A DNA stretch of 64,000 nucleotides from positions 7,907,001-7,971,000 of the forward strand of contig NC_019678.1 in NCBI RefSeq assembly GCF_000316665.1. Reading direction: 5' to 3'. The notes under the pieces were generated by a model. The model made no database searches and was not told the origin of the DNA. It saw nothing but the letters and a program-made list of their open reading frames with translations. This DNA is from Rivularia sp. PCC 7116 (lineage in GTDB: Bacteria; Cyanobacteriota; Cyanobacteriia; Cyanobacteriales; Nostocaceae). The position numbers and the translations under genes were made by a program. Numbering within the stretch: position 1 is the first letter of the stretch; each line of letters starts with the position of its first letter. Positions 18,271-41,123 of this stretch are shown in pieces.

Positions 18271-21066
18271 ATGAACATTGATAAGAACGCACCCAAAAAT
18301 GAATTTATTTTTAAAGCCAATCAACCGTTGCTTTTAGACGATCCTTCTGTAGTTTGGATGATTGAATCGGGAACTGTAGCGCTGTTTGCAGTTGTAATAC
18401 AGGATGGGATACCAGTAAGCGAACGTCGTTATCTTTTCAGTTGCAATCCTACAGAGGCATTATTTGCCATCGATTCTACTAAGGTTAAATCGATAGTTAC
18501 ATCAAACGATAACAATGACCATCCGAAAAAATACGGGATATTGGCTGTTGCTATCGAGGAAGCATCTTTAACTCAAATCCTTCAAGACGACTTTGAAGCT
18601 TTGAGAAGTAACGATTCGACTCGACTAATACCAAAATCTGCAGGAAAAGAATTTATTCAACTAGCAGAAACTTGGATTGAGAAATTTTCGATTTTCCCTG
18701 GTGTCGTTAATGCTTCAAGCATTTTTGATACTTCGGTTGCATACACTTGGGATGATGCCTCAGTTTTGCATACTTGGGAAAGGGTTTCAGAAAAATTAGG
18801 ACATTTGCACAGAGATTTTCTGCGCTATTTTGAGAAATTAGAACAAGATGAAAGCCAAGAAAAGCTTGCTCAATTTCAAGCAAGAGAACAGCTTAATCGT
18901 CGAGTTACCGAGACTTCATTAAGGGAACTAGCTTCCATATTTAAGACTAAAAGTCAAGGGTTTATTCAAGAAGACAGCGAGCTATTAATGGCTGCTGGTG
19001 CAGTGGGAAGAACTTTAGGAATTACGATTCGACCTCCCGTAAAGTCAGAAGACTTAAACCGCGTTAAAGAACCGATTGAGGCTATCGCAAGGGCTTCTCG
19101 GATTCGGATGCGTCGCGTCATCCTAACCCCTAATTGGTGGAAGAAAGATGCTGGTCCCCTGATAGGTTACGTTGGCGAGGAAAAACGTCCTGTAGCTTTA
19201 TTACCTGCTAGCAGCGGTAATTACGATATCTTCGATCCGAAAATCTGCAAACGAATTCCTTTAGAAAAGTTTATTGAAAATGAAGAATTAGAACCTGTAG
19301 CTTATATGTTTTATCGGTCTTTACCCGAGAAAGCATCTAAAGCCATAGAACTGATTAAATTTGCAGTTAGAGGTAGGCTTAAAGATTTAGCTGTAGTAAT
19401 TATTGCAGGTGTTATTGGTACCTTATTGGGTATGCTAACTCCCCAAGCTACCAGTATTATTATTGATAAAGCCATTCCCGATGCCGACCGGGGGTTATTA
19501 GTGCAAATTAGTTTTGGTTTGTTAGCAGCAAGCTTTGGTACTGCTGTATTTCAACTAACACAAAGCTTTGCTTCATTAAGATTGGAAAGCAGTTCGGACG
19601 CTACCACTCAAGCTGCTGTTTGGGATAAATTATTAACCTTGCGAATGTCGTTTTTTCGCGCTTATTCTATTGGGGATTTGCAATCGCGAGTTTCAGCGAT
19701 TAGTCAGATGCGTCAGTATCTGAGCAGCAGCACGTTACAAACTATTTTTACCAGCTTCTTTTCCCTACTAAATTTAGCTTTGTTGTTTTACTACAATTCC
19801 CGCTTGGCTTTGGTAGCAATAGGTGTAGCAGTTGTCTCAATAATTATTACTAGTATTTCTGGTATTATCACTCGACGCAAGCTGCGTCCTTTAGAAGAAA
19901 TACAAGGGGATATTTCCGGTTTGATGGTGCAGTTAATTGGTGGGGTTTCTAAATTAAGAATTTCAGGAGCAGAAAATAGGGCTTTTGCTCACTGGTCTAA
20001 GAAATACACCAAACAGCTAAAGTTAATGTTAAGCAGTCAATTGATAGAAGATTTGGTTGGCTTATTTAATATCTTAATTCCCACCATTGCTTCCATAATT
20101 ATTTTTGCTTTATCAGCTAACTTAATGTTCGGGGCAAATACACAGAATCCTCAAGCTTCTCCACCTTTAACTGCTGGAACTTTCTTAGCATTTAATTCTG
20201 CTTTTGGAACTTTTATGGGTGGTGTTGTAGGTTTAAGTAATACAATTATTTCTATTTTAGAAGTAATCGTTTTATGGGGTCGTGCAAAACCAATTCTGAT
20301 AGCTACCTCTGAGATAGATTTGAGTAAAGCTGACCCAGGAAAACTAACTGGTACAGTAGAGTTAGAACATATATCTTTTCGCTATCGAGAAGACGGTCCT
20401 TTGATTTTGAATGATGTAAATATCAAAGCAGCAGAAGGAGAATTTATTGCATTTGTTGGGCCGAGCGGTAGCGGTAAATCTACTATTATCCGCTTGCTGC
20501 TAGGATTTGATACACCGGAAGTAGGTACAGTTTATTATGATGGTCAAGACTTATCCGGATTGGATATATCGGCAGTCCGTCGTCAATTAGGCGTAGTATT
20601 GCAAAACGGAAGAATTAGCAGCGCTTCAATATTTGAAAATATCTCTGGTGGTGCTTTAATTACTATGGATGAAGCCTGGGAAGCCGCTCGAATGGCAGGA
20701 TTTGCCGAAGATATTGAAGGAATGCCAATGGGGATGCATACTGTAATATCCGAAGGTGGTACCAATCTTTCTGGAGGACAACGGCAACGTTTGTTAATCG
20801 CTCGTTCTTTGGTATTAAAGCCCAAAATTTTGATTTTTGATGAGGCAACTAGTGCTTTAGATAACCGCACCCAAGCAATTGTAAGTGAAAGTTTAGACCA
20901 GCTACAGGTGACACGCATCGTAATTGCTCACCGTCTGAGTACTATCCGCAATGCAGACCGCATTTATGTAATTGAAGCTGGGAGAGTAATGCAACAGGGA
21001 AACTTCGAGCAACTTTCACAACAGGAAGGTCTATTTGCAAGTTTGATGGCTAGGCAAATGGCTTAA
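18271..21066 (+). CDS. NHLM-type bacteriocin ABC transporter (no peptidase domain)
   Basis: A 931-residue fused permease-ATPase of the NHLM microcin type (second ABC component). The N-terminal 350 residues hold the sensor-like domain of this family (LLLDDPSVVWMIESGTVALFAV). Six membrane helices span about 365-640. The ATPase has Walker A GPSGSGKST near 729, signature LSGGQRQR near 832, Walker B ILIFDEATSALD and the H-loop AHRLST. NHLM transporters export RiPPs with Nif11 or nitrile-hydratase-like leaders together with a C39-peptidase ABC protein and an HlyD adaptor, both present at 37-41 kb. It precedes lanM by 128 bp and is probably co-transcribed. Its promoter must overlap the start of the divergent TerB gene. 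Confidence 0.9.
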   Translation: MNIDKNAPKNEFIFKANQPLLLDDPSVVWMIESGTVALFAVVIQDGIPVSERRYLFSCNPTEALFAIDSTKVKSIVTSNDNNDHPKKYGILAVAIEEASLTQILQDDFEALRSNDSTRLIPKSAGKEFIQLAETWIEKFSIFPGVVNASSIFDTSVAYTWDDASVLHTWERVSEKLGHLHRDFLRYFEKLEQDESQEKLAQFQAREQLNRRVTETSLRELASIFKTKSQGFIQEDSELLMAAGAVGRTLGITIRPPVKSEDLNRVKEPIEAIARASRIRMRRVILTPNWWKKDAGPLIGYVGEEKRPVALLPASSGNYDIFDPKICKRIPLEKFIENEELEPVAYMFYRSLPEKASKAIELIKFAVRGRLKDLAVVIIAGVIGTLLGMLTPQATSIIIDKAIPDADRGLLVQISFGLLAASFGTAVFQLTQSFASLRLESSSDATTQAAVWDKLLTLRMSFFRAYSIGDLQSRVSAISQMRQYLSSSTLQTIFTSFFSLLNLALLFYYNSRLALVAIGVAVVSIIITSISGIITRRKLRPLEEIQGDISGLMVQLIGGVSKLRISGAENRAFAHWSKKYTKQLKLMLSSQLIEDLVGLFNILIPTIASIIIFALSANLMFGANTQNPQASPPLTAGTFLAFNSAFGTFMGGVVGLSNTIISILEVIVLWGRAKPILIATSEIDLSKADPGKLTGTVELEHISFRYREDGPLILNDVNIKAAEGEFIAFVGPSGSGKSTIIRLLLGFDTPEVGTVYYDGQDLSGLDISAVRRQLGVVLQNGRISSASIFENISGGALITMDEAWEAARMAGFAEDIEGMPMGMHTVISEGGTNLSGGQRQRLLIARSLVLKPKILIFDEATSALDNRTQAIVSESLDQLQVTRIVIAHRLSTIRNADRIYVIEAGRVMQQGNFEQLSQQEGLFASLMARQMA

Positions 21067-24673: not shown

Positions 24674-25642
24674 TTAGAACAGCTTTAGGTAATTTTGATA
24701 AGAGATATACTCACTATTACCTTCTTTTTGAATCGGTGGAGTTAAATAATTCAGAAATAACTCTAAATCTTCAGTTAATATATTTTTTTCTGCTGCTATT
24801 TGAATAAGTTCAACAGCACAATCAGGTAAACAAAATATTTCCATCAAACTTGCTAACTTTAATATTTTTAACTTATTCCATTTGTTAGCGGATTCCTTTG
24901 TTTCTAATTCATTCACAGCATCTCGTAAGTATAGAGCCTGTGCCCATAAAACCTGTCCTTGCTTGGTATTTCCCAGCTGTGAAATCATCGGCAAAGGTAA
25001 AGCTTTTCTGGCATGTCGATATGTTGCCAAATCAAAAAGACGAAATCCCAAAGAATTTAAAAATAAATCGATGTGACTGAAAGTTGGCTGATTGCGAATA
25101 GATTCATGAAATAATACTTCTATACTTAATCCTAGGACGGATTCATTTAAACAACTAACCGCACCTTTTAAGACATCTAATTCACTTCCTTCAACATCCA
25201 ACTTAATAAAATCAATTTCATCAATTTTATTATCAGCCACAAAAGAATCTAAATCTACAGTTTCTATATCCAGAGTTTTTACTACTTCCATCATCTCTAA
25301 ATTATCATGGGGGAAGCGCTTCAGAAAATTTTTATTTCCTGGGTAAAAACCTGATGAACCTCCCCACTGACAAAATGAAAATGTCCGCTTTTCTCTTTTT
25401 TCACCTAAAGCTACTGCATAAAATTTACTGTTTCGATTTGGTTGCTGATTCAGGCGATCGCACTCTTCTTTGTCAGGCTCAAACCCAATTTTATAGACTT
25501 GTTCCCCATATGATTGCCAGTGATGTTCAAAACCTCCTCTTGCTCCTATATCCATAACTAAAAGAGGATTTTTGGAAAATGTTTTTTTATTAACTAAAAA
25601 TTCAGTCATTGTCGGCTGGTAATTGATATGTTTCAGTGCCAT
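24674..25642 (-). CDS. FkbM-family methyltransferase
   Basis: A 322-residue SAM-dependent methyltransferase. Motif I reads LLVMDIGARGGFEHHW near residues 28-43, the acidic loop GFEPDKEE follows, and the family motif DEIDFIKLDVEGSELDVLKGA is near 140-160. FkbM enzymes methylate hydroxyl or amide groups, and members occur in RiPP clusters such as that of landornamide. Position next to the precursor genes on the same strand suggests peptide tailoring. About 80 residues beyond the usual core make a helical C-terminal extension. The substrate is inferred only. Confidence 0.88.
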   Translation of the reverse strand: MALKHINYQPTMTEFLVNKKTFSKNPLLVMDIGARGGFEHHWQSYGEQVYKIGFEPDKEECDRLNQQPNRNSKFYAVALGEKREKRTFSFCQWGGSSGFYPGNKNFLKRFPHDNLEMMEVVKTLDIETVDLDSFVADNKIDEIDFIKLDVEGSELDVLKGAVSCLNESVLGLSIEVLFHESIRNQPTFSHIDLFLNSLGFRLFDLATYRHARKALPLPMISQLGNTKQGQVLWAQALYLRDAVNELETKESANKWNKLKILKLASLMEIFCLPDCAVELIQIAAEKNILTEDLELFLNYLTPPIQKEGNSEYISYQNYLKLF

Positions 25643-25984
25643 AATTAGTATTTATTGGTAGGACTTTTATTTAGAGTTATATGATTTAACGGTCATTATT
25701 GTCATTACAAATCAAAACAAGACTTACTTTCAGCAAAATTTCGATATTTGTAATGACAATAAAGCAATAATTGCGTACTAACTTCTAGATATTAATTTAC
25801 TAGATGGGGTACAGATATTTTTTTCAGGATGACGATATAAATCACCGTAAATGTTTAGATATTCAATTTATTCTGAGGTAAATTTACCCTTTCGCATACA
25901 TTTAATTGCAGCATCAATTGCTTAGATTAAATAGCAAATATAAACTGTCTAACTTATAAAAATAGAGTTAGGCAATTTATTTAT
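25643..25984. repeat. Gene-free stretch with a 17-bp perfect inverted repeat
   Basis: Arms TTATTGTCATTACAAAT (25696-25712) and ATTTGTAATGACAATAA (25746-25762) are perfect complements across a 33-base loop, upstream of the methyltransferase gene. This could be an operator, a transcript-processing hairpin or the remnant of a small element. No gene is seen. Confidence 0.6.
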
Positions 25985-26128
25985 TGTGAAATTAAAGCCA
26001 TGCTTTGCTCCTAAATATACAACCGCTTGACGGTCATTTTCTGCCTGCGTTGCTTGAGCTAGTTCTTCTTGAATTTGATTATCCTATCCAACTTTATCTA
26101 AAAATTGATTTACTGCTTAAATACTCAT
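25985..26128 (-). pseudogene. Broken sixth Nif11-type precursor peptide gene
   Basis: Read on the minus strand from 26128, the translation is MSI-stop-AVNQFLDKV, a second stop two codons later, then IQEELAQATQAENDRQAV and LGAKHGFNF. This is the leader of the neighbouring precursors with GAA changed to TAA at codon 4 and another stop at codon 15. The sequence stops matching after the GFNF segment, so the GG cleavage site and the core are gone. It is a decayed tandem copy. Confidence 0.85.
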
Positions 26129-26376: not shown

Positions 26377-26709
26377 TTACCATTTCGCTGTGGGCAATTT
26401 GGGAAATGTGGGTAGTGTGGGGATGTGAGGAAATATTACGGTAGTAATTGGTACTATCGTGGCTTTTGCACCACCAGCCACAGCTTCTAATTCTTCTTCA
26501 TTCAATTCACCAGATTCAATAGCAGCTTTTTGACGTTTTTCAATTTCAGTCATTAGTTCATCGCCAGTGAACTCAAAGCCATGTTTTGCTCCTAAATCTA
26601 CAACCGCTTGACGGTCATTTTCTGCCTGCATTGCTTGGGCTAATTCTTCTTGAATTTTGCTTTCTTGTGCAACTTTATCTAAGAATTTATTTACTGCTTC
26701 GATACTCAT
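26377..26709 (-). CDS. Nif11-leader RiPP precursor 1 (Cys-free core, ends AKW)
   Basis: A 110-residue precursor: an 80-residue Nif11-type leader (MSIEAVNKFLDKVAQES, AENDRQAVVDLGAKHGFEF, ELNEEELEAVAGG) and a 30-residue core after the Gly-Gly cleavage site. The core begins AKATIVPITT, is rich in Pro and Thr (PHIPTLPTFPKLPT) and ends AKW. It has seven Thr, five Pro and no Cys or Ser, so dehydration and Pro hydroxylation are possible but lanthionine rings are not. Its leader is nearly identical to those of precursors 2 and 3. Confidence 0.9.
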   Translation of the reverse strand: MSIEAVNKFLDKVAQESKIQEELAQAMQAENDRQAVVDLGAKHGFEFTGDELMTEIEKRQKAAIESGELNEEELEAVAGGAKATIVPITTVIFPHIPTLPTFPKLPTAKW

Positions 26710-26858
26710 TGTTGTTACCTATTCTAATTTTTGTAATTAAAGATTTAGTCAATTCAATATCAAAATTTTACCCATTCTCTATTGAGTTTCTGTTGAGAAA
26801 AGAGAAATGGAATAAAGTTGTAATATTGTATTAAGTCAGATTTACTTGCCTACAATAC

Positions 26859-27185
26859 TTACCACTTTACTTTTTTGGCTATTGTTACAACAACGGGGGC
26901 GGTAGCAGTAACAATCGGTACAATCGTCGTAAATGTAGGAGTTGCTCCACCAGCAACAGCTTCTAGTTCTTCTTCACTTAGTTCGCCGGAATCAGCAGCA
27001 GCTTTTTGGCGTTTTTCAATTTCATTCATCAGCTCGTCGCCAGTGAAGTTAAAACCATGCTTTGCTCCTAATTCCACAACCGCTTGACGGTCGTTTTCAG
27101 CCTGCATTGCTTGAACTAATTCTTCTTGAATATTGCTATCTTTAGCAACTTTTTCTAAGAATTGATTTACTGCTTCGATACTCAT
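26859..27185 (-). CDS. Nif11-leader RiPP precursor 2 (Cys-free core, ends VKW)
   Basis: A 108-residue precursor from the Met of MSIEAVNQFLEKV; a 13-residue in-frame extension upstream has no leader similarity and was not used. The leader is again exactly 80 residues, ending ELSEEELEAVAGG. The 28-residue core begins ATPTFTTIVPIV, is rich in Thr and Val, has no Cys and ends KKVKW. It is the best candidate here for multiple Thr dehydration. It lies 150 bp from precursor 1 and 123 bp from precursor 3. Confidence 0.88.
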   Translation of the reverse strand: MSIEAVNQFLEKVAKDSNIQEELVQAMQAENDRQAVVELGAKHGFNFTGDELMNEIEKRQKAAADSGELSEEELEAVAGGATPTFTTIVPIVTATAPVVVTIAKKVKW

Positions 27186-27308
27186 TTTTATTAACTCTAA
27201 CTGATTATTTGATTCTGCAAACATCCCTCTCCAATACTTATGAAGAGGGGATGAGAGCGAGTTTCGGCTTGAATCTATAATTAAGTGACTAAGCCTTATC
27301 TAAAAACC

Positions 27309-27623
27309 TTACCACTTGGCTTTATTGATTGCTGCTATCGCTATAGGAGCAAGTGCGCCAATGAGTGGTATTATGGGAAACGCTCCACCAGCAACAGCTT
27401 CAAGTTCTTCTTCACTCAATTCACCAGACTCAGCAGCAGCTTTTTGACGTTTTTCAATTTCAGTGACTAGTTCGTCACCAGTGAACTCAAAGCCGTGTTT
27501 TGCTCCTAAATCTACAACCGCTTGACGGTCATTTTCTGCCTGCATTGCTTGAGCTAATTCTTCTTGAATTGTGCTGTCTTGTGCAACTTTATCTAAGAAT
27601 TTATTTACTGCTTCAATACTCAT
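27309..27623 (-). CDS. Nif11-leader RiPP precursor 3 (core without Cys, Ser or Thr)
   Basis: A 104-residue precursor with the standard 80-residue leader ending EEELEAVAGG and a short 24-residue core that begins AFPIIPLIGALAP and ends NKAKW. The core has no Cys, Ser or Thr at all, so LanM has nothing to dehydrate. It is strongly hydrophobic (Ile, Ala, Pro, Leu). Either it is exported with other modifications or acts unmodified. The leader DNA is almost identical to that of precursor 1, pointing to recent duplication with core replacement. Confidence 0.88.
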   Translation of the reverse strand: MSIEAVNKFLDKVAQDSTIQEELAQAMQAENDRQAVVDLGAKHGFEFTGDELVTEIEKRQKAAAESGELSEEELEAVAGGAFPIIPLIGALAPIAIAAINKAKW

Positions 27624-28002
27624 TGTTGTTACCCTATGCGATTGCTGTCATTAAAGATTTTGTTTGAGTTGGCGCTTTTGTGTTACATCGAATTGATTGT
27701 ATTTCGCCGAACTTCGTATCCTATACTATGTTCTTTTTTGGTGGCAATTAACAGTGTATTTACTTATTTTGTATATTGGCAAAAAAGTAAATATTTTCAG
27801 ACTAACCATTCTACTTTTGGAGGGTTGATTATGTATTCAATGGTTAGACTTGAGGAATACCATGCCAATCAATTGAACATAGCCCTTTTCCCTTGAGTGC
27901 ATATATGTTCTCAAGCTACCTACACTAATCAAATAAAGATGCCGAGGAGAGAACTCATCCTTAAAAGCTCAGAATTATAAGCAAAAAGCCAAGTTTAATA
28001 GC
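27624..28002. other. Spacer between the two precursor subgroups
   Basis: About 380 bases upstream of precursor 3. An 86-codon plus-strand open frame here has no visible similarity, signal peptide or coding bias and is not called. A promoter for precursors 3-1 is expected here. No repeat was recognised. Confidence 0.4.
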
Positions 28003-28332
28003 TTACCACTTAGCTTTAGCAATAACACCTCCAGTTATACCAGCAGTCATGGCAATTCCTCCTGCCACGAAAAAGGTTGTAGCTGGGGTAGCACCACCTG
28101 CAACAGCTTCGAGTTCTTCTTCACTCAGCTCACCCGCATCAGCAGCAGCCTGTTGGCGTTTTTCGATTTCCTGCATTAGCTCATCACCAGTGAAATCATA
28201 GCCTTTGTTATTAGCCAACTCTGTTACAGCTTGACGATCGTTTTCAGATTGCATCGCTTTTGCTAGTTCTTCTTGCAGTTGGGCATCTTCTGCAACTTTG
28301 GTCAAAAATTGATTGACTGCTTCTACACTCAT
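28003..28332 (-). CDS. Nif11-leader RiPP precursor 4 (Cys-free core, ends AKW)
   Basis: A 109-residue precursor from MSVEAVNQFLTKV; AAAGG lies about 10 bases upstream, and the 16 extra codons before it are not leader-like. The 80-residue leader differs from precursors 1-3 (EDAQLQEELAKAMQSENDRQAVTELANNKGYDF) and ends EEELEAVAGG. The 29-residue core begins ATPATTFFVAGG, is Gly- and Thr-rich, has no Cys and ends AKAKW. A second AGG inside the core could be misread as a cleavage site; the conserved leader length argues for the first. Confidence 0.88.
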   Translation of the reverse strand: MSVEAVNQFLTKVAEDAQLQEELAKAMQSENDRQAVTELANNKGYDFTGDELMQEIEKRQQAAADAGELSEEELEAVAGGATPATTFFVAGGIAMTAGITGGVIAKAKW

Positions 28333-28452
28333 GAATGATAACCTTTGTAAATGAACTAAATGCCAATATTGATTTTGCAAAAGTGAAGCTTTTTACTTTA
28401 TATGCAGCCATATATTTGTAGTAGTGAATAGGCTGAACTATAAAGAATTAAG

Positions 28453-28782
28453 TTACCACTTTGCATAGCGTTTTATTACTGCTCCGCCAATTGCGCCACT
28501 TGCTCCCATAATAGTGACGACAAGCGCTCCTGCTGGGGTAGCACCACCTGCAACTGCTTCGAGTTCTTCTTCACTTAGTTCCCCAGAATCGATAATAGCC
28601 TGTTGACGGTTCTTAATTTCCTCCCAGAGTTCATCTGATGTGAACTGAAAGCCTTCTTGTGCAGCTAAATCGGTAACAGCTTGACGGTCATTTTCAGATT
28701 CAATCGCTTTCACCAATTTTTGTTGTAACTCTGGATCTTCTGAAACTTTTTCAAAAAATTGGTTAACTGTTTGGGTACTCAT
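28453..28782 (-). CDS. Nif11-leader RiPP precursor 5 (Cys-free core, ends AKW)
   Basis: A 109-residue precursor from MSTQTVNQFFEKV; the nine upstream codons are outside the family pattern. The leader is 80 residues and the most diverged of the five (EDPELQQKLVKAIESENDRQAVTDLAAQEGFQF, WEEIKNRQQ) but ends in the same ELSEEELEAVAGG. The 29-residue core begins ATPAGALVVTIMGASG, has one Ser and two Thr, no Cys, and ends KRYAKW. It is probably the first gene of the minus-strand array, its promoter lying in 28783-29146. Confidence 0.87.
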   Translation of the reverse strand: MSTQTVNQFFEKVSEDPELQQKLVKAIESENDRQAVTDLAAQEGFQFTSDELWEEIKNRQQAIIDSGELSEEELEAVAGGATPAGALVVTIMGASGAIGGAVIKRYAKW

Positions 28783-29146: not shown

Positions 29147-30616
29147 ATGAACAATGCTATTTCTTTCAGTCAAGGCTCGCAGATTCGACCGTTTAACGTT
29201 AACGACAGAGTATGTCTGGCTATTCAACCCTTTATTCAGGAAGTACTCAATCGCTTTGTAGAATGCCAAAATTTAGGTGAGTCTATCAAAGCATCAGTAG
29301 AAAATCATCAGGAGATTGTTGAACAAGCCTTTGAGATAGATAACCATAAGATTGAAGAAAGCTTTACCTTAAAACAAGAATTTCTCTTTCCGGAAGAAAA
29401 CCCTTTATTGTTCATATCCTATGATAATCCCAGCTTTCTACCTTTCCTAAATAAAAAAGGGGTGCAATCAATTAAAGATGAATCCATTTTGCCTGATATT
29501 CATCAATTACTTTATTCTATTGGTCAATCTAAATTCACTTATCAGCAAATTAAGCAGCAAATTAGCGAGCCAATGGTAGATTTGCTGGATAAATTGATTA
29601 AATCCAGCGTTGTTAAAGAAAAACCTGCTGTAGACATAGGAGTTCCTTTAAATACTCCCGGAGTATTTCGATTGCAGCACGCATCGGTATTGTATAGGAC
29701 TAAAACAACAGGTATATTAGTTGACCCACATTTGCATTCCAACTATGGTATTCCAGGATTAAAATCTGATATTAATCGCGCTCAATTGGAAGGTTTAGTT
29801 GATGGTATTTTAATTTCTCATCCTCACTACGATCATTGGCACTATCCTACCTTGATGATGTTTGCGAAGGAAACGCCAATATTTGTGCCGAAAGTGCCTC
29901 GTGCTTCTATTATGTGCGAAGATATGGCAGGACGACTAAAAAGTTTAGGATTTACCAATGTGATTGCAGTTGATTGGTATTCCGAACCGATTAGAATCGG
30001 GGATATTAATATTAATGTTTTACCTTTTTATGGAGAACAAGCTTTAGTACCAGAATTTGATAAGCCCAAATATCCTGAATTAAGAAATTGGGGTAATACC
30101 TATTTAATTGATACTGAATTTTATAAGTCATGGCTGTTAATTGATGCTGGACAAGAACCCAATGGTTCCATGATAGAAGTAGCTGAATACGTGAAAAATA
30201 GTTTCGGTTCTATTGATTTGCTTATCAGTAATTTTCAGCCACTATCCTATAACTCTATTGGTACGAATTTATCTGGATGGGGAATTGATATTGTGGCAAA
30301 TTTACTTAGCAATCCTCAAATATTTTCTGTTACGAACAAACCTGAAGGAGCCTATATTGCTTTGTTAGGACCAAAAGGTGTGGCAGAAGTTTGTAATATA
30401 GTCAATGCTTCTTATTGTTTTCCTTATGCAGATAGTTGGGCAGAAGCTGGAAAATCAGGAATGCACGATGAAGAATTAATTCCTCAAGTTCAAGCTGAAT
30501 TACAAAAAATTGGCTGTTCTACTAAAGTTATTCCTTGGAAAATTGGCGATGGTTATGTAACTCGTAATGTTACGGAATGGAATCTAGAAGCTGGTAATTG
30601 GTATATGAATAATTGA
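29147..30616 (+). CDS. Metallo-beta-lactamase-fold protein 1 of the RiPP operon
   Basis: A 489-residue protein, first of a five-gene plus-strand operon. After a helical N-terminal part (about 1-170) comes a metallo-beta-lactamase fold: FRLQHASVLYRTKTTGILVDPH, the metal motif ISHPHYDHWH (HxHxDH, near residue 224), and WLLIDAGQEPNG with the later metal Asp. It resembles UlaG-like and sialic-acid-hydroxylase-like members rather than hydrolytic lactamases. Some MBL-fold proteins with a di-iron site hydroxylate peptides or carrier-bound amino acids. Peptide tailoring is inferred from context only. Gap to the next gene is 64 bp. Confidence 0.75.
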   Translation: MNNAISFSQGSQIRPFNVNDRVCLAIQPFIQEVLNRFVECQNLGESIKASVENHQEIVEQAFEIDNHKIEESFTLKQEFLFPEENPLLFISYDNPSFLPFLNKKGVQSIKDESILPDIHQLLYSIGQSKFTYQQIKQQISEPMVDLLDKLIKSSVVKEKPAVDIGVPLNTPGVFRLQHASVLYRTKTTGILVDPHLHSNYGIPGLKSDINRAQLEGLVDGILISHPHYDHWHYPTLMMFAKETPIFVPKVPRASIMCEDMAGRLKSLGFTNVIAVDWYSEPIRIGDININVLPFYGEQALVPEFDKPKYPELRNWGNTYLIDTEFYKSWLLIDAGQEPNGSMIEVAEYVKNSFGSIDLLISNFQPLSYNSIGTNLSGWGIDIVANLLSNPQIFSVTNKPEGAYIALLGPKGVAEVCNIVNASYCFPYADSWAEAGKSGMHDEELIPQVQAELQKIGCSTKVIPWKIGDGYVTRNVTEWNLEAGNWYMNN

Positions 30617-30680: not shown

Positions 30681-31301
30681 ATGATATCTTCAATTCAAAC
30701 ACAAAAAAAATGTTATTCACAGCGAAAAGATGCCTTTTCTAATGAATATTTAGAATTTTTAAAGAAAGATATTCTTAATAGTCCTTATTTAGCAGCCAGT
30801 CAACTAAGTGACGGATTTGTGGAAACTCAAGGTTTTTCTGTTGTATTTAAACGCTCAACAATAGCTGAAGTGGAAAAAAAACTTCCATATTTTAAACCTT
30901 ATTTAGATACAGCTTTAAAATCTAGCTGTAATGCGTTTTATTTAAATCCTCTGATTTTGAATAGCGATACTTACGTAGAACCTCATGTAGATTGCAGTAT
31001 ATCTGAGTATGGCATGGAAATGGTGATGCCAAATTTAGTTAGCGTACTGTATGTTCAAGTTCCCTCGGATTTAAAAGGAGGTGAATTAGTATTACAGCAA
31101 AGCGAAGAACAGGTATGGCAAATTACCCCTCAAATCAATACATTACTTTATTTTCTGGGTTGGATAACGCATTCTGTAAATCGAGTCGAGAGTTCTCATA
31201 AACGGATAAGTTTAATTTGCGAGCAATATAATTTAAGCGAATCTCGATTAAATAAAATACCTGATTTTGAAATCAAGTCTGGAAAAGACAGTGGAAAATA
31301 A
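30681..31301 (+). CDS. 2-oxoglutarate/Fe(II) oxygenase, prolyl-hydroxylase-like
   Basis: A 206-residue enzyme with the facial triad of the family: His102-x-Asp104 (VEPHVDCS) and His164 (WITHSVNRVESS), followed by Lys174-Arg175, the position that binds the 2-oxoglutarate carboxylate. The GGELVLQQ strand between them is typical of P4Hc/prolyl-4-hydroxylase-like members. In a cluster whose precursor 1 core has five prolines and precursors 2 and 3 also carry prolines, hydroxylation of core residues is a natural guess. The gene starts after AAAGGAAA and ends 41 bp before the next gene. Confidence 0.82.
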   Translation: MISSIQTQKKCYSQRKDAFSNEYLEFLKKDILNSPYLAASQLSDGFVETQGFSVVFKRSTIAEVEKKLPYFKPYLDTALKSSCNAFYLNPLILNSDTYVEPHVDCSISEYGMEMVMPNLVSVLYVQVPSDLKGGELVLQQSEEQVWQITPQINTLLYFLGWITHSVNRVESSHKRISLICEQYNLSESRLNKIPDFEIKSGKDSGK

Positions 31302-31342: not shown

Positions 31343-32443
31343 ATGATAGTAACTAATTCTCTGACAGATTATTTAAGTTTATTAAACTCTTTTGTGCCAA
31401 GGGAGTTAATTGCAGAGTCAGAATGGAGAAAATTCAATCACATAGGAAATATTTTACCAAGTGCGCTGACGACTTTTTTCGGATTTGAATCTCGTTTGGG
31501 AATTCCAGAAGCACATGGTGATTTTCTCATTTGTGCTGATGCTCACGAAGCAGGGCGTAGGGTATTAGCTGCTAATAGTTATGATATTGATTTACCTACT
31601 GAATTATTGCACCATCCTGTATGGATGAATATCCGCAAATTTAGTACTAATTGGGAAAGTGAGGCATCACCTCTTTACGACAAAATTACCAATGTCTGGC
31701 TAGAATTTGATGTTGGAAATGAAACAAAAGATTTACCAGTTCCGAGTTGCTTTTTTGGACCAAAAAACCTTTATAATACACCTGCTGTAGATTCAGAACA
31801 TCCATATAAATGGATATGGGAAAATGCTTTACCGCTGTTGTTAGGAAGAAGCTTTCCAAAATCCGTCGAAAACAATATTGTAAAATGTTTTGCGGCATTA
31901 CCAGAAAATGCTTATGTTTTCCAAGTTGGGTTAATGTTGGCAAGAGAATGGGATGGTGTCAGGCTTTGTATTCGTAATATTTCACCTGAGAAAATTATCG
32001 ATTATTTAAAGAGTTTAGATTGGCAAGGAGATTTGAATAATTTACAACTACAGTTAAATAATATTTCGCCATTAGTTGACCGTATTGATTTAGATATTGA
32101 TGTTACCGAAGGTCTCGGTGATAAAATTGGTTTAGAATGTTATTTAAACAAACAGCCACAATTTGAAAAACGCTGGAGTTTGTTTTTAGATAATTTATTA
32201 TTAAAAGGATTGTGTTTTCCTAAAAAGCAACAAGCTTTATTGACATATCCAGGATATATTCAAGAAAAAATGAATCCTTCTTTATGGCCTTTAAGTTTAC
32301 GAAAAATTTCTAAAATATTAGGTGATAGTTATGAATGGGTCATATTTAAAGGCATTCATCACATTAAACTGAATTACTGCGATGCAGAAATCAAGGAAGC
32401 TAAAGCTTATTTATACGTTAGTCGAAGTTTGATTAGAGGTTGA
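31343..32443 (+). CDS. Unrecognised 366-residue protein of the RiPP operon
   Basis: I do not recognise this family. The protein is soluble (no signal, no membrane helix) and appears mixed alpha/beta. Segments that look structured are AHGDFLICADAHEAGRRVLA (about 55-75), VFQVGLMLAREWDGVRLCIRNIS, IDLDIDVTEGLGDKIGLECYL and FKGIHHIKLNYCDAEIKEAKAYLYV at the C-terminus. The repeated pattern of long strands ending in a conserved acidic or basic residue could suit a barrel, for example an ABBA-type prenyltransferase, but no signature proves it. It is co-directional and tightly spaced within the operon, so a role in peptide tailoring is likely. Confidence 0.7.
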   Translation: MIVTNSLTDYLSLLNSFVPRELIAESEWRKFNHIGNILPSALTTFFGFESRLGIPEAHGDFLICADAHEAGRRVLAANSYDIDLPTELLHHPVWMNIRKFSTNWESEASPLYDKITNVWLEFDVGNETKDLPVPSCFFGPKNLYNTPAVDSEHPYKWIWENALPLLLGRSFPKSVENNIVKCFAALPENAYVFQVGLMLAREWDGVRLCIRNISPEKIIDYLKSLDWQGDLNNLQLQLNNISPLVDRIDLDIDVTEGLGDKIGLECYLNKQPQFEKRWSLFLDNLLLKGLCFPKKQQALLTYPGYIQEKMNPSLWPLSLRKISKILGDSYEWVIFKGIHHIKLNYCDAEIKEAKAYLYVSRSLIRG

Positions 32444-32507: not shown

Positions 32508-34319
32508 ATGTTAGTTTCGGAAATCTTACGATTTTTACCAGATTCTTTAGAATGGATGGTTTTATTTGATTTACCAGCTATTCAAAAGTTGACAAATCTA
32601 TCCACCATTAAGGCAATGTATCACCTTCCGGAGGATATAGATTTAGAGCCTCATAGTCATATTGTTTTGACTAGCGCCGGACGTTTTTTAGCTTTTCAAA
32701 ATCAGCTAAAATTAGTAGAGGCTATTTCTCAAGAAGAGTTATCGGTTGAACTTACATCTTCTTTAGCCAATCGCTTTCAAAATCGTTTGAAATTAGTCCC
32801 GGTAGATGAATCACACTGCTTAGGTTTGGGAGAACAACCTCCTTTTTCACCAGTTATATTGCATCTCAGACTTGAAAATGATTTGGGTAGAGCGACAGCA
32901 ATTTTTGAACGCGAACCTTCTTTTGAACATTATGAATTGTTGCGAGCTGTAGGTGTGAAATTTACGGGAGGTGAATTAAAAGACGATTATTATTTAGCGC
33001 GTTTTCAAAATCGTTTGCCCGTACATATTCACGCTGGGATTCTATCTCATTTTAGCCGCACTGCACACTGCAATATATTTTTCTTCCAGCATGGAAATAT
33101 TGATAATGCTTTAGAAGATGGTTTATTGAAAGCTTCTCAAGTCAGGATAAATTGGACAAAGCAGCAATGCTTGCAAAGTTTAACGCAATTAGCAACTATT
33201 TCCTGCGAAAAAACTCTGAGTATGACTTGTCAACCACCTGCACCCCAAAAACCCTTTGCTTATGGTGATTTAGTGCCTTTAGGATTTGTTCTCAAGGCAC
33301 TAAATGAGGTGGATACAAAAGAAAATTCAGAACTTGATACTGCTAAACAAAAATTGCAGCAATTCTTATTAAATCAGCAACAAGATCAGCTATGGGCATT
33401 TCATACACAGCGATTGATTACCGCTACAGATTCATCATTGGTGCTATTAGGATTGGATAAACCCGAATCTGTAGAAGCTCTGGAGAGATTTTCTGATGGT
33501 GAGGGAGGATATTATCCCCAACTGTGGTCAAAATATCAAGAACCGGGTAAAATGCTGCTGGATGAAAGTTGCAGTCATTGGTGTCAACCTGATTATGCAA
33601 CTACCTGCTTAGTTCGATGGCTGCGGAATTCGGCAGGTTTGGAAACTAAAACCGATTTGGAATATTTAGCTGATGGCTTCTCTCAACGTGCGGGTTTATA
33701 TTTTGCCAACCCTTACTTAGTAGACTGGATGCTTGCAGAAGCAATTCGCGAAGATAAAAATGCTGCCACTTTACGAGAGAGATTGCTTGTAGAGATAATC
33801 GCAAGTATGAATGAGGATTTCTCTTTCGGTAAATACGATGTGGCATTATCTACCGCACTAGGTATTTTAACTTTGGCAGCTTTAGGAGTTAGCGATCGCA
33901 CTATTTGCGCTGCTCAATTAAGATTGTTGGAATTAATCGGTGAGAAGTCGTCTATTTCGATTCCTTTCTATTCTACTTTATGTCATGATTCAGAACTAAA
34001 TTCCCAGGAAAAATTGGCATTACAGTTAAACGAAACGTTTACTAGAAGTAAGGATGGACAAAAACAAATTCGTAGCATAAACGGACAACTTCACAGTATT
34101 TCTCTTTATCTCGATACCCATGAGATGATTACTACAGCAATATGTGCTTTAGCTTTAGATCGAAATAGCGATTTAAATAAATGGCAGGTTAATAGAAATT
34201 CAAGCAATAGTAATTATAGTAATTCTTGCCATCCTCGCTATCAGTGTAAAACTCATTCGCAGTATATAGCAAAGTTTGCTTTGCCACCTTATCTAAAAAA
34301 ATGTGCTGTAAGTCTATAG
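32508..34319 (+). CDS. Terpene-cyclase-like alpha/alpha toroid protein of the RiPP operon
   Basis: A 603-residue protein. The N-terminal 240 residues are not recognised. From about 250 the sequence shows repeats like those of the squalene-cyclase/prenyltransferase alpha-toroid superfamily: QLWAFHTQRLITATDSSLVLLGL, WCQPDYATTCLVRWLR, FGKYDVALSTALGILTLAALG and SLYLDTHEMITTAICALAL. No DxDD or DxxDD-type catalytic motif is visible, so it is probably not an active terpene cyclase. LanC cyclases share the same general toroid architecture, so this protein could take over a ring-forming or binding role lost by LanM; that is speculation. Most substitutions expected of a normal enzyme family are unknown to me. 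Confidence 0.65.
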   Translation: MLVSEILRFLPDSLEWMVLFDLPAIQKLTNLSTIKAMYHLPEDIDLEPHSHIVLTSAGRFLAFQNQLKLVEAISQEELSVELTSSLANRFQNRLKLVPVDESHCLGLGEQPPFSPVILHLRLENDLGRATAIFEREPSFEHYELLRAVGVKFTGGELKDDYYLARFQNRLPVHIHAGILSHFSRTAHCNIFFFQHGNIDNALEDGLLKASQVRINWTKQQCLQSLTQLATISCEKTLSMTCQPPAPQKPFAYGDLVPLGFVLKALNEVDTKENSELDTAKQKLQQFLLNQQQDQLWAFHTQRLITATDSSLVLLGLDKPESVEALERFSDGEGGYYPQLWSKYQEPGKMLLDESCSHWCQPDYATTCLVRWLRNSAGLETKTDLEYLADGFSQRAGLYFANPYLVDWMLAEAIREDKNAATLRERLLVEIIASMNEDFSFGKYDVALSTALGILTLAALGVSDRTICAAQLRLLELIGEKSSISIPFYSTLCHDSELNSQEKLALQLNETFTRSKDGQKQIRSINGQLHSISLYLDTHEMITTAICALALDRNSDLNKWQVNRNSSNSNYSNSCHPRYQCKTHSQYIAKFALPPYLKKCAVSL

Positions 34320-34466: not shown

Positions 34467-35939
34467 ATGCAAATTCATATGATTGGACATGCATCCATTT
34501 TTGTAAAAACTCAGGATGCTAAAATTTTGATGGACCCAGTTTTATGGGACCCTTTTTGCGAAGGATTAAATGAAACTTGTCCTAAACGAGAATTAATTCC
34601 GGAAAAACTACCTGAATTTGATTTTCTGGTTATTTCTCATCAACATTTAGACCATTTCGATCTGCGTTCCCTTGCTTATCTTCCTAAAAACATTGATGTT
34701 TTAGTTCCTAAAGACGCTCTTATTATCGATAGCTTGCGTCAACTGGGTTATTCTAATATCTACCCATTAAAAGAATTTCAAAAAGTCAGAATCGGTTCTA
34801 CTACATTGATGACTACTCGTTCCGAAGTCAGAGTACCAGAATTTGGCATGGTATTCGCTGATGATTCGGGGGTATTTTGGAATACTGTAGATACATATTT
34901 TGCTCCTCCAACAATTCAAGCCGTGAAGGCAATTTATCCCCAAATAGACTTTTTATTAGCTACTTGGCATATTAGCTTAGAAAATAAGTATCAGCAGAAT
35001 AAAAATACTGAGTTTCCGTTTGAATTATACGGACAATTAATGAATTTGATTCAATTAGTTGAACCACAAGCTATTGCTCCCGGCGCGCAAGGTTGGAAAT
35101 ATATTAACGAAGCAGCATGGCAAAATCAAATAGTTTTCCCGCTCACAAGAGAGCGTTTTTGCCACGATATCAAACAAGTTTTACCCGATATAAATAATAA
35201 TATTTTTGTTTTAGACCCCGGTGATATCCTAACATTAGAACGAGGAGATTATAATTTAGAATCAGCAGGGTGCGATTATGTCAAAACAATTGTTGATGAT
35301 AGAGAATGTTTGGAATTTGCACCAGTAAAAGTAGGGGCGAATTTAATCGATCCTAATTCAGATAGACATGATATTGACTTGATGCAACAGACAATACATC
35401 AAGCTTTACGGGTAGATTTATGCGATTTTATTAAAGAATATCAGCATAATCTATTTTTGAATAACCAACGCTGGCAGGTTATTTATCAATTAGAAATTAC
35501 CTATCCGGAAATCACCGAGACATACCATATTGATTTCTCGAATTCAAAAATTAAAATAAAAGAAGGGCGCAATCCTTTAGCTAATTTATTTACCTATATT
35601 ACCGCATCTAGTTTGTACAATTTGATTAATAAAAAAATAGATTGGGATTATCTTTACTGTAGTGGGGAATATCGTAATTTTCATAAAGTCTATTCTCTAG
35701 CTAAGTTAGGTATTTTAACTCCAGCAGAAGATACCTTATTAGATCCAATTTCCATAAAATACTCTTCTGAATATGTCGCCGGAGAACATATAAAAACAGA
35801 ACTATCAAAAATTATGGAAACTCACGATATATCTATACCCAATAATTCAAACATAGAAGAAAAATCTAGTACCATGTTGAATTTAGGTAATATATTAATA
35901 AAAATGAAAAAAAATCAAAAAGAGTCAACTATATCTTAA
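34467..35939 (+). CDS. Metallo-beta-lactamase-fold protein 2 of the RiPP operon
   Basis: A 490-residue protein starting directly in an MBL fold: MQIHMIGHASIFVKTQDAK, DPVLWDPF, the metal motif ISHQHLDHFDLRSL (HxHxDH near residue 57) and later VFADDSGVFWNTVDTY. The layout and the long C-terminal part (about 280-460; NPLANLFTYITASSLYNLINKKIDWDYLY) recall the non-Rieske part of CMP-N-acetylneuraminate hydroxylase-like proteins. It is last in the operon, 147 bp after the toroid protein, and converges with the metalloprotease gene 25 bp away. Whether it oxidises or hydrolyses the peptide is unknown. Confidence 0.72.
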   Translation: MQIHMIGHASIFVKTQDAKILMDPVLWDPFCEGLNETCPKRELIPEKLPEFDFLVISHQHLDHFDLRSLAYLPKNIDVLVPKDALIIDSLRQLGYSNIYPLKEFQKVRIGSTTLMTTRSEVRVPEFGMVFADDSGVFWNTVDTYFAPPTIQAVKAIYPQIDFLLATWHISLENKYQQNKNTEFPFELYGQLMNLIQLVEPQAIAPGAQGWKYINEAAWQNQIVFPLTRERFCHDIKQVLPDINNNIFVLDPGDILTLERGDYNLESAGCDYVKTIVDDRECLEFAPVKVGANLIDPNSDRHDIDLMQQTIHQALRVDLCDFIKEYQHNLFLNNQRWQVIYQLEITYPEITETYHIDFSNSKIKIKEGRNPLANLFTYITASSLYNLINKKIDWDYLYCSGEYRNFHKVYSLAKLGILTPAEDTLLDPISIKYSSEYVAGEHIKTELSKIMETHDISIPNNSNIEEKSSTMLNLGNILIKMKKNQKESTIS

Positions 35940-35964: not shown

Positions 35965-37116
35965 TTAGCTAATACATATTTTATCTTGCTGTATTCTACT
36001 TATAGCTTGATGAATCTTAGCTGCAATATCGTCTGAAGCTAATTCTTCCAATGTTAGCTGGCAAAGAGCAGCTAACATTATTGCACCATCTATTTTATTA
36101 ACTTGCTCTGTTTCAAAACTTTTCAGATTTCGCGATGCATTGTAAACGAGTTTTTGTAATATCTCAAAACTTGTTTCAGATAAATTATTACGATAATTCT
36201 CTAATCTGCCACCTTGACGATAGTTGGGGAATGATTCCAAACCCATAAAATTCAAAAACCAATCATCTCGATAGTTACCAGCCGCCGAAACAATTCCTCG
36301 ATAGTCAGCAATGAATTCATCTAACAAATTATTTCGCATCGAACCAAATAAACGTTTAGTCAGATAATGGGTACATTCATGTTCCAAACGAATAGTTAAT
36401 GAAAGATTTTGCCATTCCGTTGCGGATAAACCTAGCTTTTCTGCTGAAACATTACTGTAACAGCTTTGGCTTAATATAATAAATCTATCTTGATAAAGCT
36501 GTTTGCGAGGAATGAGCTGACGAAACTCAATATTCCAATCAGTTTCTGTACTATTGGGGTTATTCGCTTGCCATTCTTGCCGATATTGATGAATTCTATC
36601 CCAATTATTAAAGCCACCTACCATACAAGCTCCCATCGAAGCAGGGATATCTTTGGGTTCGTTACGCATTGTTAATGCTTGCACTAAAGAGACGAAATCC
36701 AAACGGTTATCTGTAATGATTACAGGTATCTCTCCAGCTATACTCGGGTGTATTCTTAGCTGTAATTTTTCTGGTGCCCGCAATAACAAACCAGGATTTT
36801 TATCAATGCAATCAGCCACTATACCTTTACGAGTTGCAGCTTGATAAGCAGATGTTTGAGAGATTCCTGGCGATATCGGGAAACGCAACTGCACGAGCTT
36901 TTCTTTTAAAGTTTGAAAAACACCTTTACTTGTTGCTTCCGAGGCATAACTTTTCCAAGTATTGACATGAGCTTCGGATGCAAGTGGAAAATTAATTGCT
37001 TTAGACAAACAAGAATAATCAAAAACATTTTTGTTATAAGCTAATAGTTCTGCAACTTCTACACTATTAGCTCCATAACTGACAAGTATGTTAGCTCTTA
37101 AGTCTTGTAATTCCAT
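35965..37116 (-). CDS. Putative zinc metalloprotease with HECTH motif
   Basis: A 383-residue soluble protein. The motif RLEHECTHYLTKRLFG (near 244-248) is an HExxH zinc-binding signature, and LLDEFIADYRGI about 25 residues later supplies a plausible third ligand Glu. The rest is mostly helical and not recognised. Proteins of this kind (DUF7005-like, by recollection) occur beside cyanobacterial RiPP genes. It could trim leaders or C-termini, or act on imported peptide. It lies 62 bp from the C39-ABC transporter and reads with it, so it is likely last in that operon. Confidence 0.65.
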   Translation of the reverse strand: MELQDLRANILVSYGANSVEVAELLAYNKNVFDYSCLSKAINFPLASEAHVNTWKSYASEATSKGVFQTLKEKLVQLRFPISPGISQTSAYQAATRKGIVADCIDKNPGLLLRAPEKLQLRIHPSIAGEIPVIITDNRLDFVSLVQALTMRNEPKDIPASMGACMVGGFNNWDRIHQYRQEWQANNPNSTETDWNIEFRQLIPRKQLYQDRFIILSQSCYSNVSAEKLGLSATEWQNLSLTIRLEHECTHYLTKRLFGSMRNNLLDEFIADYRGIVSAAGNYRDDWFLNFMGLESFPNYRQGGRLENYRNNLSETSFEILQKLVYNASRNLKSFETEQVNKIDGAIMLAALCQLTLEELASDDIAAKIHQAISRIQQDKICIS

Positions 37117-39518: not shown

Positions 39519-41123
39519 TTATTTCAAACCAGTCCAATCTCTTAATATTGGTAATACAAAAGTTATTGGTGCCCGTTGTTCAATTTTGACACGAGTATTA
39601 GTAGTAGTTCCTTGTGAAATTGTTAATTTCGGTCCTTTAGAAGATGACCAACGATAACCGCTAAAAGTTGAATCATCAGTTTGCAACTCTGCTAAAATAG
39701 CAATTCTTGGTTCACCAGCAGTCAACTTATTTACTAATTCTTGATTTCCTAATTCTAAGGCTGCTCCTTGTGGAGTAATTGGAAAAGGAGAAACTGAAAC
39801 AATTTTACCGATGATACCTCCAAATCTTTCTCTTTTGACCATATCAGGAGTAACTTGAATTTCCATTCCTGGCTGTATTTTTTTTCCATCTTTTACAGGA
39901 AAATAAGTCACAGCGAGCATTTTTCCCGTCGCACCATTATTATTAATGCTAGCAATAGTAGTTCCCGGATTAATAACTTGTCCGGCAGTCGCAGTTATTT
40001 CTAAAATACATCCAGAACGTGCGCTCACAATTGTACTGTTGTCGGCAACTTTTTGTTCTAATTGAGCAATTGCTCGCTCAACTTCCTTTATTTGATTGAG
40101 TTTACTATTTCTTGTTTCCAAATTTTCTTGATCTAAACGTTTGGTTTTAGTTTCAATTTGTTGTAACTGAGTTTCCAGTTGAGAAATAGTATTTAAGTTG
40201 TTAAGATATCTCTGTTCTATTTGTGTTTGTTTAACTTTTAATCCTTTAAGTTGAACTTGAATTTCGCTAATGCTATTGAGGTTAGATAAATACTGCTGTT
40301 GCGATTGAGTTTCTCTCAAGTCTAGCTGTTTTAATTCTGCTTGTAAAACCGCAACTTGCTGTTGCGCTTCACGGAATTGCTGTTCTACTTGTAATACTGT
40401 ATCGGCTGCAATCGCTCCCTCTTTTAACAACTGTCGTCGTTTTGTCAATCTTTCTTGCTGTATAGGAATTAAAGCTCGTGCATCCTCTAATCGTTTTTGT
40501 AGGCTAATTCGCTGCTGTTTAATCGCATTAGATGACTTAGTTTTCAGAGATGGTGTCACAGCTTCTTGTCTTTGCAATCGCTGTTGTAAACTTTGACGTT
40601 GTTGAGAAATAGATACTAAATCTTGATTTTTAAGTATCGGTGAAAGTTCTCGCGCTACTTTCAAACGTTGTAGTAAACTATCTCTTTCTGAAACTAATAC
40701 TTCTTTTTCTAATTTAGTACGTTGACGTTGTAGCGCGAAGCTATCGGTTTGTTGCGTTAACAATTGCGCTCGTTTGGTGCGTTGTTGTTCTAGTTGTTGC
40801 TTTAGTTCTTTGGGATCGATTGTTGCTAAGATTTGACCTTTCTCGACACATTCACCATTACGTATGTCAACTGATGTTAATTGTCCTGCAATCTGAGATT
40901 GAAGCTGTACTACTTGTCTTGGATTAATCAGGACTCCGGGAGCGTTTTCTGTAATCGGAATGCGTCCAAAAACACTCCAAACCAAAGCCGAAAACACAAA
41001 AACACCTAAAGTACCTAGCGGTAGCCAATCTCTAGGATTTACTACCTGCATTAGTTGATCCAAACGTTCTGGAGAAGATAGTCTCTCTAAAGATTCCTTT
41101 CTAAATAGTTTTTCATGTTCCAT
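39519..41123 (-). CDS. HlyD-type membrane fusion protein of the NHLM export system
   Basis: A 534-residue adaptor. One membrane helix lies near residues 36-52 (LGTLGVFVFSALVWSVFG). Lipoyl/HlyD segments flank a very long coiled coil: GQLTSVDIRNGECVEKGQILATIDP near 95 and SGCILEITATAGQVINPGTTIASI near 375. The coiled coil between them (about 115-360) is full of Gln-Leu-Gln heptads. It bridges the inner-membrane ABC transporter to an outer-membrane channel of the TolC type, which is not in the window. It is first in the minus-strand export operon, 129 bp before the transporter gene. Confidence 0.92.
   Translation of the reverse strand: MEHEKLFRKESLERLSSPERLDQLMQVVNPRDWLPLGTLGVFVFSALVWSVFGRIPITENAPGVLINPRQVVQLQSQIAGQLTSVDIRNGECVEKGQILATIDPKELKQQLEQQRTKRAQLLTQQTDSFALQRQRTKLEKEVLVSERDSLLQRLKVARELSPILKNQDLVSISQQRQSLQQRLQRQEAVTPSLKTKSSNAIKQQRISLQKRLEDARALIPIQQERLTKRRQLLKEGAIAADTVLQVEQQFREAQQQVAVLQAELKQLDLRETQSQQQYLSNLNSISEIQVQLKGLKVKQTQIEQRYLNNLNTISQLETQLQQIETKTKRLDQENLETRNSKLNQIKEVERAIAQLEQKVADNSTIVSARSGCILEITATAGQVINPGTTIASINNNGATGKMLAVTYFPVKDGKKIQPGMEIQVTPDMVKRERFGGIIGKIVSVSPFPITPQGAALELGNQELVNKLTAGEPRIAILAELQTDDSTFSGYRWSSSKGPKLTISQGTTTNTRVKIEQRAPITFVLPILRDWTGLK

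Follow-up and report, generated by a model that had tools for sequence, protein, structure and literature searches.

The described systems closest to the locus analysed here are ribosomally synthesized and post-translationally modified peptides (RiPPs). The locus itself, five Nif11-leader precursor genes and their neighbours, lies in a 64,000-nucleotide stretch of the Rivularia sp. PCC 7116 genome (contig NC_019678.1, positions 7,907,001 to 7,971,000; hereafter, the window). In the accessible sections of the source reports, the mpp system of Moorena (MppE/MppM/MppC/MppD; PMC12715784, PMC11791876) shares with it a Nif11 leader, a LanM and an ABBA-fold Trp prenyltransferase. However, the MppE core has seven residues including Cys, carries a lanthionine and is prenylated on an internal Trp, whereas the window encodes long, Cys-free cores ending in Trp, together with CmlA-like and 2-oxoglutarate (2OG) enzymes. 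PalQ/PalX (PMC10853753) resembles the window in that an NHLP precursor has a conserved C-terminal Trp, which is prenylated there, but PalQ belongs to the isoprene-synthase superfamily rather than the ABBA fold, and the accessible part of that text mentions no LanM. NctPC is one fused protein, an ABBA prenyltransferase and an MstE-like cyclase, which a review (PMC13290415) describes as putting a C20 chain on Trp and then cyclising it. Going by that description, the same two enzyme types are predicted in the window, although as two genes and with an unassigned N-terminal part in the cyclase. The dehydrazole enzymes LanMbC/CcaM (PMC10676384) likewise combine a DUF4135 dehydratase with a zinc-less cyclase domain and yield dehydroamino acids without lanthionine; according to the accessible text, they differ in being azole-dependent, with a YcaO protein and a class III-type cyclase domain. 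Finally, crocagins (PMC10070186) arise by RiPP chemistry at a core Tyr-Trp, with other enzymes as far as the accessible text describes them.

We consider it probable that the five peptides of the window are precursors of ribosomal peptide-terpenoid hybrids, in which the terminal Trp would be prenylated, the attached chain cyclised and oxidised, and Ser/Thr residues dehydrated without lanthionine formation. The chemical steps, the acceptor residue, the chain length, the order of steps and the role of the product are all inferred from gene content, predicted folds, homology and conservation. An initial annotation of the window had recognised no described product class in the precursors. This was too strong, as Trp-prenylated Nif11 lanthipeptides (MppC), PalQ/PalX and NctPC are published; the exact combination of features was not found in searches of an open-access library, screened mostly at listing level.

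Precursors ending in tryptophan

The precursor genes, each an open reading frame (ORF) matched by Pfam Nif11 and TIGR03798, and one remnant are the following:

26377..26709, minus strand: Nif11 precursor 1, core AKATIVPITTVIFPHIPTLPTFPKLPTAKW
26859..27185, minus strand: Nif11 precursor 2, core ATPTFTTIVPIVTATAPVVVTIAKKVKW
27309..27623, minus strand: Nif11 precursor 3, core AFPIIPLIGALAPIAIAAINKAKW, without Ser, Thr or Cys
28003..28332, minus strand: Nif11 precursor 4, core ATPATTFFVAGGIAMTAGITGGVIAKAKW
28453..28782, minus strand: Nif11 precursor 5, core ATPAGALVVTIMGASGAIGGAVIKRYAKW
~25949..26128, minus strand: sixth Nif11 leader, decayed, with internal stops and without a core

The Pfam matches have E-values of 2.2e-13 to 1.6e-14, and all five ORFs score above the TIGR03798 cut-off. 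The leaders span 80 residues through the AVAGG site in each case and are followed by hydrophobic cores of 30, 28, 24, 29 and 29 residues (precursors 1-5), which end in AKW or VKW in 5/5. None of the cores contains the Cys needed for the thioether rings of class II lanthipeptides. As in N11P precursors, the Nif11 leader ending in Gly-Gly is accompanied by NHLM/C39 export genes. The initial annotation had described precisely these leader lengths, Cys-free cores of 24-30 residues and (A/V)KW ends, and all were confirmed. It had also called the leaders invariant, which holds for their length but not for their sequence, the whole precursors being 49-79% identical to precursor 1.

Shared descent of five tandem paralogues could explain a common ending, yet comparison with homologous clusters reveals more than chance at the sequence level. 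Such clusters were found using two anchors from the window, the metallo-β-lactamase (MBL)-fold protein MBL1 and a predicted terpene cyclase termed toroid. MBL1 has matches in 20 of the 243 genomes of the order (eight strong, E < 1e-110, own genome included) and the toroid in 9 of 243. When genome contigs were scanned with an alignment of the toroid, 18 named loci emerged. They include Nostocales HT-58-2, Cylindrospermum (Cylindrospermum sp. FACHB-282 being one carrier), Chamaesiphon (likewise Chamaesiphon polymorphus), Chrysosporum, Oscillatoria, Prochloron, Hyella and Pseudanabaena, as well as two metagenome-assembled genomes (MAGs) of Chloroflexota (Anaerolineae, Anaerolineales) and one fragment in a Rubrobacteraceae MAG. 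Together with G024 (= L070), G041, G064, G090 and the window, the named loci gave 46 precursor ORFs, duplicates (G024/L070, G094/L061, G107/L058, G044/L066, G162/L065) being counted once. Six named loci (L057, L060, L063, L069, L071, L072) contributed no precursor, and the leader fragments L055 -2 and window 25949 were excluded.

Trp is the last residue of 41/46 cluster precursors, and 35/46 end in KW; leaving out the five of the window, the counts are 36/41 and 30/41. Of the 16 genomes that have a precursor (G024 and L070 being one), 15 encode at least one ending in Trp; the exception is Prochloron (L066), with a single ORF that lacks a core. A further complete cluster outside the 46 (L151, with the G429 precursor) has one KW precursor. 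As a control, we took 62 distinct Nif11 C-termini from 30 loci and 29 chosen stretches, among the matches listed in the 243-genome TIGR03798 search; six end in Trp and none in KW. One control sequence (L081) duplicates an ORF of the cluster set (L066), leaving 61 independent ones. Fisher tests of cluster against control, with the window's five included, gave p ~8e-18 (W) and ~5e-19 (KW), values that ignore kinship and are indicative only.

The two leader types differ in what precedes the Trp. Among Nif11-type precursors, 35/39 end in Trp and 34/39 in KW, while the NHLP type ends in Trp in 6/7 (SMW, SLW, GGW, GGW, NGW, DKW) and in KW in 1/7; assignment to the NHLP type is by family match for L067 and one L065 precursor and by resemblance for the other five. 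Since NHLP-type precursors mostly end in Trp without Lys, Trp rather than Lys-Trp appears to be essential: at the sequence level, Trp is the conserved element, with Lys as its usual companion in precursors of the Nif11 type. The conserved Lys-Trp dipeptide of the initial annotation therefore stands for its Trp, but not for Lys as a common element. KW did prove to be kept among the orthologues (35/46, against 0/62 in the control), contrary to one of the refuting findings that the annotation had named, and the proposal that the conserved end is a modification site is most likely correct.

The absence of Cys, on the other hand, is a tendency of these core sequences and not a defining trait. The regular expression for cores left out two precursors ending in Trp (L064, L067), so that 39 cores were parsed. 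Three of these, with the same leader type, contain one Cys (L055, L059, L061), the other finding that the initial annotation had named as refuting; a Cys is also present in the NHLP core of L067, one of the two not parsed, making 4/41. The core at window 27309 is the only one of the 39 without Ser/Thr.

The prenyltransferase-toroid pair

Two adjacent genes would provide the terpene chemistry:

31343..32443, plus strand: MppC-like prenyltransferase of the ABBA fold, 366 aa, the proposed enzyme for prenylating the C-terminal Trp
32508..34319, plus strand: toroid, residues ~207-556 a predicted class II terpene cyclase domain resembling squalene-hopene cyclase (SHC) and MstE

The prenyltransferase is an MppC homologue with a predicted ABBA fold, as in mpp, and a predicted class II terpene cyclase adjoins it, as in NctPC; the two are separate ORFs in the window and its relatives rather than fused. 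The fold assignment of the toroid rests on VIA-align, and its candidate acid, Asp308 (in TDS), is invariant in 16/16 sequences. Pfam and NCBIfam scans of the window recognised neither protein. Three other assignments were discarded: a HopA1-like phospho-lyase for the 366-aa protein (supported by no search, with nothing in Pfam and a fold pointing to ABBA), a partial ABBA barrel in the N-terminal part of the toroid (profile comparison negative, probability 0.1%) and a toroid of the sugar-enzyme type (lower Z).

Prenyltransferase and toroid are found together in 15/18 named loci. Two relatives are imperfect, the toroid frame ending early in L062 and the prenyltransferase being split in L066. LanM was found in 12/18, MBL1 in 9/18 and the 2OG enzyme in 8/18, several contigs being short. 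The higher count marks the pair as the conserved core. Thirteen further loci have a prenyltransferase relative without a full toroid, and five of them (L148, L152, L154, L158, L159) supplied 11 precursors of the Gly-Gly type, of which one ends in Trp and two, both from L159, in Tyr; a weak Nif11-like ORF in L150 lacks a Gly-Gly-type leader end. With 1/11 in the toroid-less loci, the terminal Trp tracks the prenyltransferase-toroid pair and not the whole prenyltransferase family.

One of the toroid-less loci, L148, would be an mpp cluster, judging by precursor length and core. In this mpp-like locus, the prenyltransferase homologue is 39% identical and the cyclase shares one motif with the toroid, but the LanM keeps its WC and CC zinc motifs and the MppD-like protein (L148 10225-12405) consists of an amine-oxidase domain fused to a squalene-hopene-cyclase-like domain. 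In L159 (9820-10519), an MppC-like prenyltransferase and a LanM (SWAQG/LCWG) stand beside the two Nif11 precursors ending in Tyr (AYCY, DDFY), and this locus may be the Tyr equivalent. The Rivularia genome itself has two more prenyltransferase relatives without a nearby toroid (C1:5999473-6000513 and C1:6931064-6932272).

Several loci with a toroid contain additional enzymes. L056 combines the pair with a radical SAM C-methyltransferase, a PoyD epimerase and an NHLP-type precursor ending in Trp, and L067 with a radical SAM C-methyltransferase, YcaO, SagB, a peptide-arginase-like protein (below cut-off) and again an NHLP-type precursor ending in Trp. The toroid of L069 has as neighbours YcaO, a flavoprotein resembling geranylgeranyl reductase (slightly under the cut-off) and a radical SAM C-methyltransferase accompanied by a similar second ORF. 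A medium-chain dehydrogenase-like protein recurs in L060, L063, L064, L067 and L068 (PF08240 in four, L064 by resemblance). This alcohol dehydrogenase (ADH)-like, perhaps LanJ-like, protein possibly reduces dehydroamino acids or the terpene; no ADH-like reductase is among the window ORFs scanned.

Predicted dehydration, oxidation and export genes

The remaining genes of the cluster are:

18271..21066, plus strand: NHLM export ABC transporter, second subunit, TIGR03797
21195..24458, plus strand: LanM (PF13575 425 bits, TIGR03897 908 bits), dehydratase motifs intact, cyclase zinc ligands lost (SWAHG, LAWG)
24674..25642, minus strand: FkbM-type methyltransferase
29147..30616, plus strand: MBL1, MBL-fold oxygenase-like protein, CmlA-like, HxHxDH, Glu297 in alignment with the special carboxylate of CmlA
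30681..31301, plus strand: 2OG-Fe(II) oxygenase, PF13640, PKHD/PiuC-like
34467..35939, plus strand: MBL2, second MBL-fold protein, weaker CmlA-like match
35965..37116, minus strand: DUF7005 protein, PF22541, HExxH motif seen by eye
37179..39389, minus strand: ABC transporter with C39 peptidase, predicted leader cleavage and export
39519..41123, minus strand: HlyD-type membrane fusion protein

The kinase/lyase motifs of the class II dehydratase domain (LSDxH, YKP, DxHxxN, DxE, RxxFRxT), whose residues we take to have their usual roles, are kept in all 15 LanM sequences inspected. The three zinc-ligand positions, which we assume to correspond to those of NisC-type enzymes, are all changed in the window (SWAHG/LAWG). 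In 11 of the 12 LanMs with an aligned cyclase region, the first Cys is gone and Trp occupies the third ligand position; the middle Cys persists in several (LCWG). Complete ligands occur only in the Anaerolineae locus L067 (Cys at the first site, CC at the second) among the 15 sequences. The cyclase domain is absent from L058, L060 and G090, which end at 657-664 residues, and truncated in L065. That the scarcity of Cys goes with the loss of the zinc site is thus supported by these alignments. The initial annotation, which had linked a degenerate cyclase to the lack of Cys, was right about the zinc site, but the enzyme is not simply dead. LanM-type enzymes with zinc-less cyclases that only dehydrate are published (PMC10676384, accessible sections), and Haft 2010 (PMC2887384, accessible sections) expected LanM-linked NHLP precursors without Cys to remain dehydrated.

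MBL1 is a candidate CmlA-type diiron oxygenase, judging from its profile matches to CmlA (E 1.4e-13) and to the non-heme diiron monooxygenase 8a90 (2.5e-10), with which it shares the MBL fold, HxHxDH and an extra Glu. The ligand residues H225, H227, D229, H230 and E297 are invariant in 10/10 sequences, and Glu297 lines up with the CmlA Glu that is replaced by Asp in chain 5kil, presumably the E377D mutant of CmlA. MBL2 matches CmlA at 3e-7. Known CmlA-type enzymes act on carrier-bound amino acids; unlike these, the CmlA-like proteins described here sit in a RiPP cluster. The 2OG protein resembles the PKHD hydroxylase PiuC (2e-4). It shares one reading frame with FkbM in G024 and G090, and some other relatives have a prenyltransferase with a second 2OG domain fused to it.

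Past the exporter genes, an MBL protein matching Pfam Anti-Pycsar Apyc1 (window 42490-43308) adjoins a TPR-CHAT protein. Further along, nifK is cut after ~430 residues (window 46555-47847, minus strand). Its C-terminal part lies ~84.7 kb away at C1:7868651-7868860 (L169), next to a gene for a serine recombinase (Resolvase, Recombinase, Zn-ribbon), and further nitrogenase-type matches are likewise fragmented. Because the two nifK parts flank it at ~84.7 kb, the RiPP cluster lies inside a nifK-interrupting element. There is precedent for nif-interrupting elements being excised in heterocysts, and this one is perhaps excised there as well.

Proposed route and alternatives

In the proposed route, the Nif11 leader would recruit the enzymes, the MppC-like ABBA prenyltransferase (31343-32443) would attach a prenyl chain to the indole ring of the terminal Trp, and the class II cyclase domain (32508-34319) would protonate the chain and fold it into rings. 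Independently, the dehydratase half of LanM would convert core Ser/Thr to dehydroamino acids that are not closed to lanthionines. The CmlA-like MBL proteins and 2OG enzymes would oxidise afterwards, FkbM may methylate, and the C39/ABC/HlyD exporter would cleave after Gly-Gly and secrete the product, probably a membrane-active peptide. With Trp as the proposed site of terpene attachment, only the last core residues would be fixed and the rest free to vary.

Several observations weigh against this route. The toroid model is of moderate confidence only, its N-terminal ~200 residues are unassigned, and in a sequence-profile search neither the prenyltransferase nor the toroid profile significantly matches any PDB chain. 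No prenyl diphosphate synthase is present among the window ORFs scanned with Pfam, and the core at 27309-27623 offers the LanM dehydratase no Ser/Thr. Five of the 46 cluster precursors do not end in Trp: G024 28071 (QKK), L056 6541 (KFM), L061 19652 (KAK, leader incomplete), L066 120 (IKN, without core) and L070 14984 (SLV). L069 has a toroid, with no prenyltransferase found, while L152, with a prenyltransferase relative and LanM but no toroid, has five Trp-free precursors, four of them with one Tyr. In sequence terms, the toroid-less loci weaken a simple one-enzyme rule and fit a two-enzyme site. Finally, the prenylated Trp of mpp is not the last residue in the accessible part of its description (PMC12715784).

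Crocagin cores are very short and have Trp at their C-terminus. An unlikely alternative is that the C-terminal Trp is β-hydroxylated by the CmlA-like or 2OG enzymes and closed to a pyrroloindoline as in crocagins, the prenyltransferase and toroid acting elsewhere. The accessible crocagin text provides a precedent for Trp C-β hydroxylation (PMC10070186), and the cluster has two CmlA-like proteins and a 2OG enzyme, with the second 2OG domain in some relatives. However, the oxygenases are its variable part (MBL1 9/18, 2OG 8/18, with several short contigs) compared with 15/18 for prenyltransferase and toroid, and the precursors of L065 still end in Trp, though no oxygenase was found on that contig of only 7.3 kb.

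It is quite unlikely that KW stays unmodified and serves in recognition or at the membrane interface, docking an enzyme or the exporter or anchoring a hydrophobic, cationic peptide. The hydrophobic cores and the Lys before Trp in 34/39 Nif11-type members would suit such a role, and RiPP enzymes can read a C-terminal motif (the ARMD motif, in the accessible part of its description). Members ending in GW, LW, MW or SW nevertheless keep Trp alone, and the cluster contains a relative of a Trp prenyltransferase. That these are ordinary class II lanthipeptides, whose cyclase is drifting and whose KW was inherited through paralogy, is very improbable: the LanM family match (908 bits), the three relatives with one core Cys and the zinc ligands and Cys core of L067 speak for it, but it is already contradicted in the window by Cys-free cores (0/5), and elsewhere by the loss of zinc ligands in nearly all relatives inspected and by the spread of the tail over genera, leader types and two phyla.

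Returning to the peptide-terpenoid hybrids, Trp prenylation and terpene cyclisation of RiPPs are already published (NctPC), and in principle such a product has been described before. What is new is the pairing of a conserved Trp at the C-terminus with two separate enzymes, together with a LanM predicted only to dehydrate and with CmlA-like proteins in a RiPP cluster. We suggest tentatively that the products form a distinct RiPP class of linear, lanthionine-free dehydropeptides, the terminal Trp of which would be capped by a cyclised, oxidised terpene. The enzymes would be a LanM that only dehydrates, an MppC-like prenyltransferase, a class II terpene cyclase working on a peptide as a protein of its own, and diiron oxygenases of the CmlA kind that had moved from carrier-protein chemistry to ribosomal peptides.

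A two-residue tail thereby becomes a testable prediction on product chemistry, and a search rule follows: a C-terminal Trp beside an MppC-like prenyltransferase and an SHC-like cyclase. If the proposal is true, it would offer a reason for the loss of the LanM cyclase in these clusters, and long, genetically encoded peptides could bear a polycyclic terpene at one defined end and vary freely elsewhere in the core, which would make them appealing for engineering.

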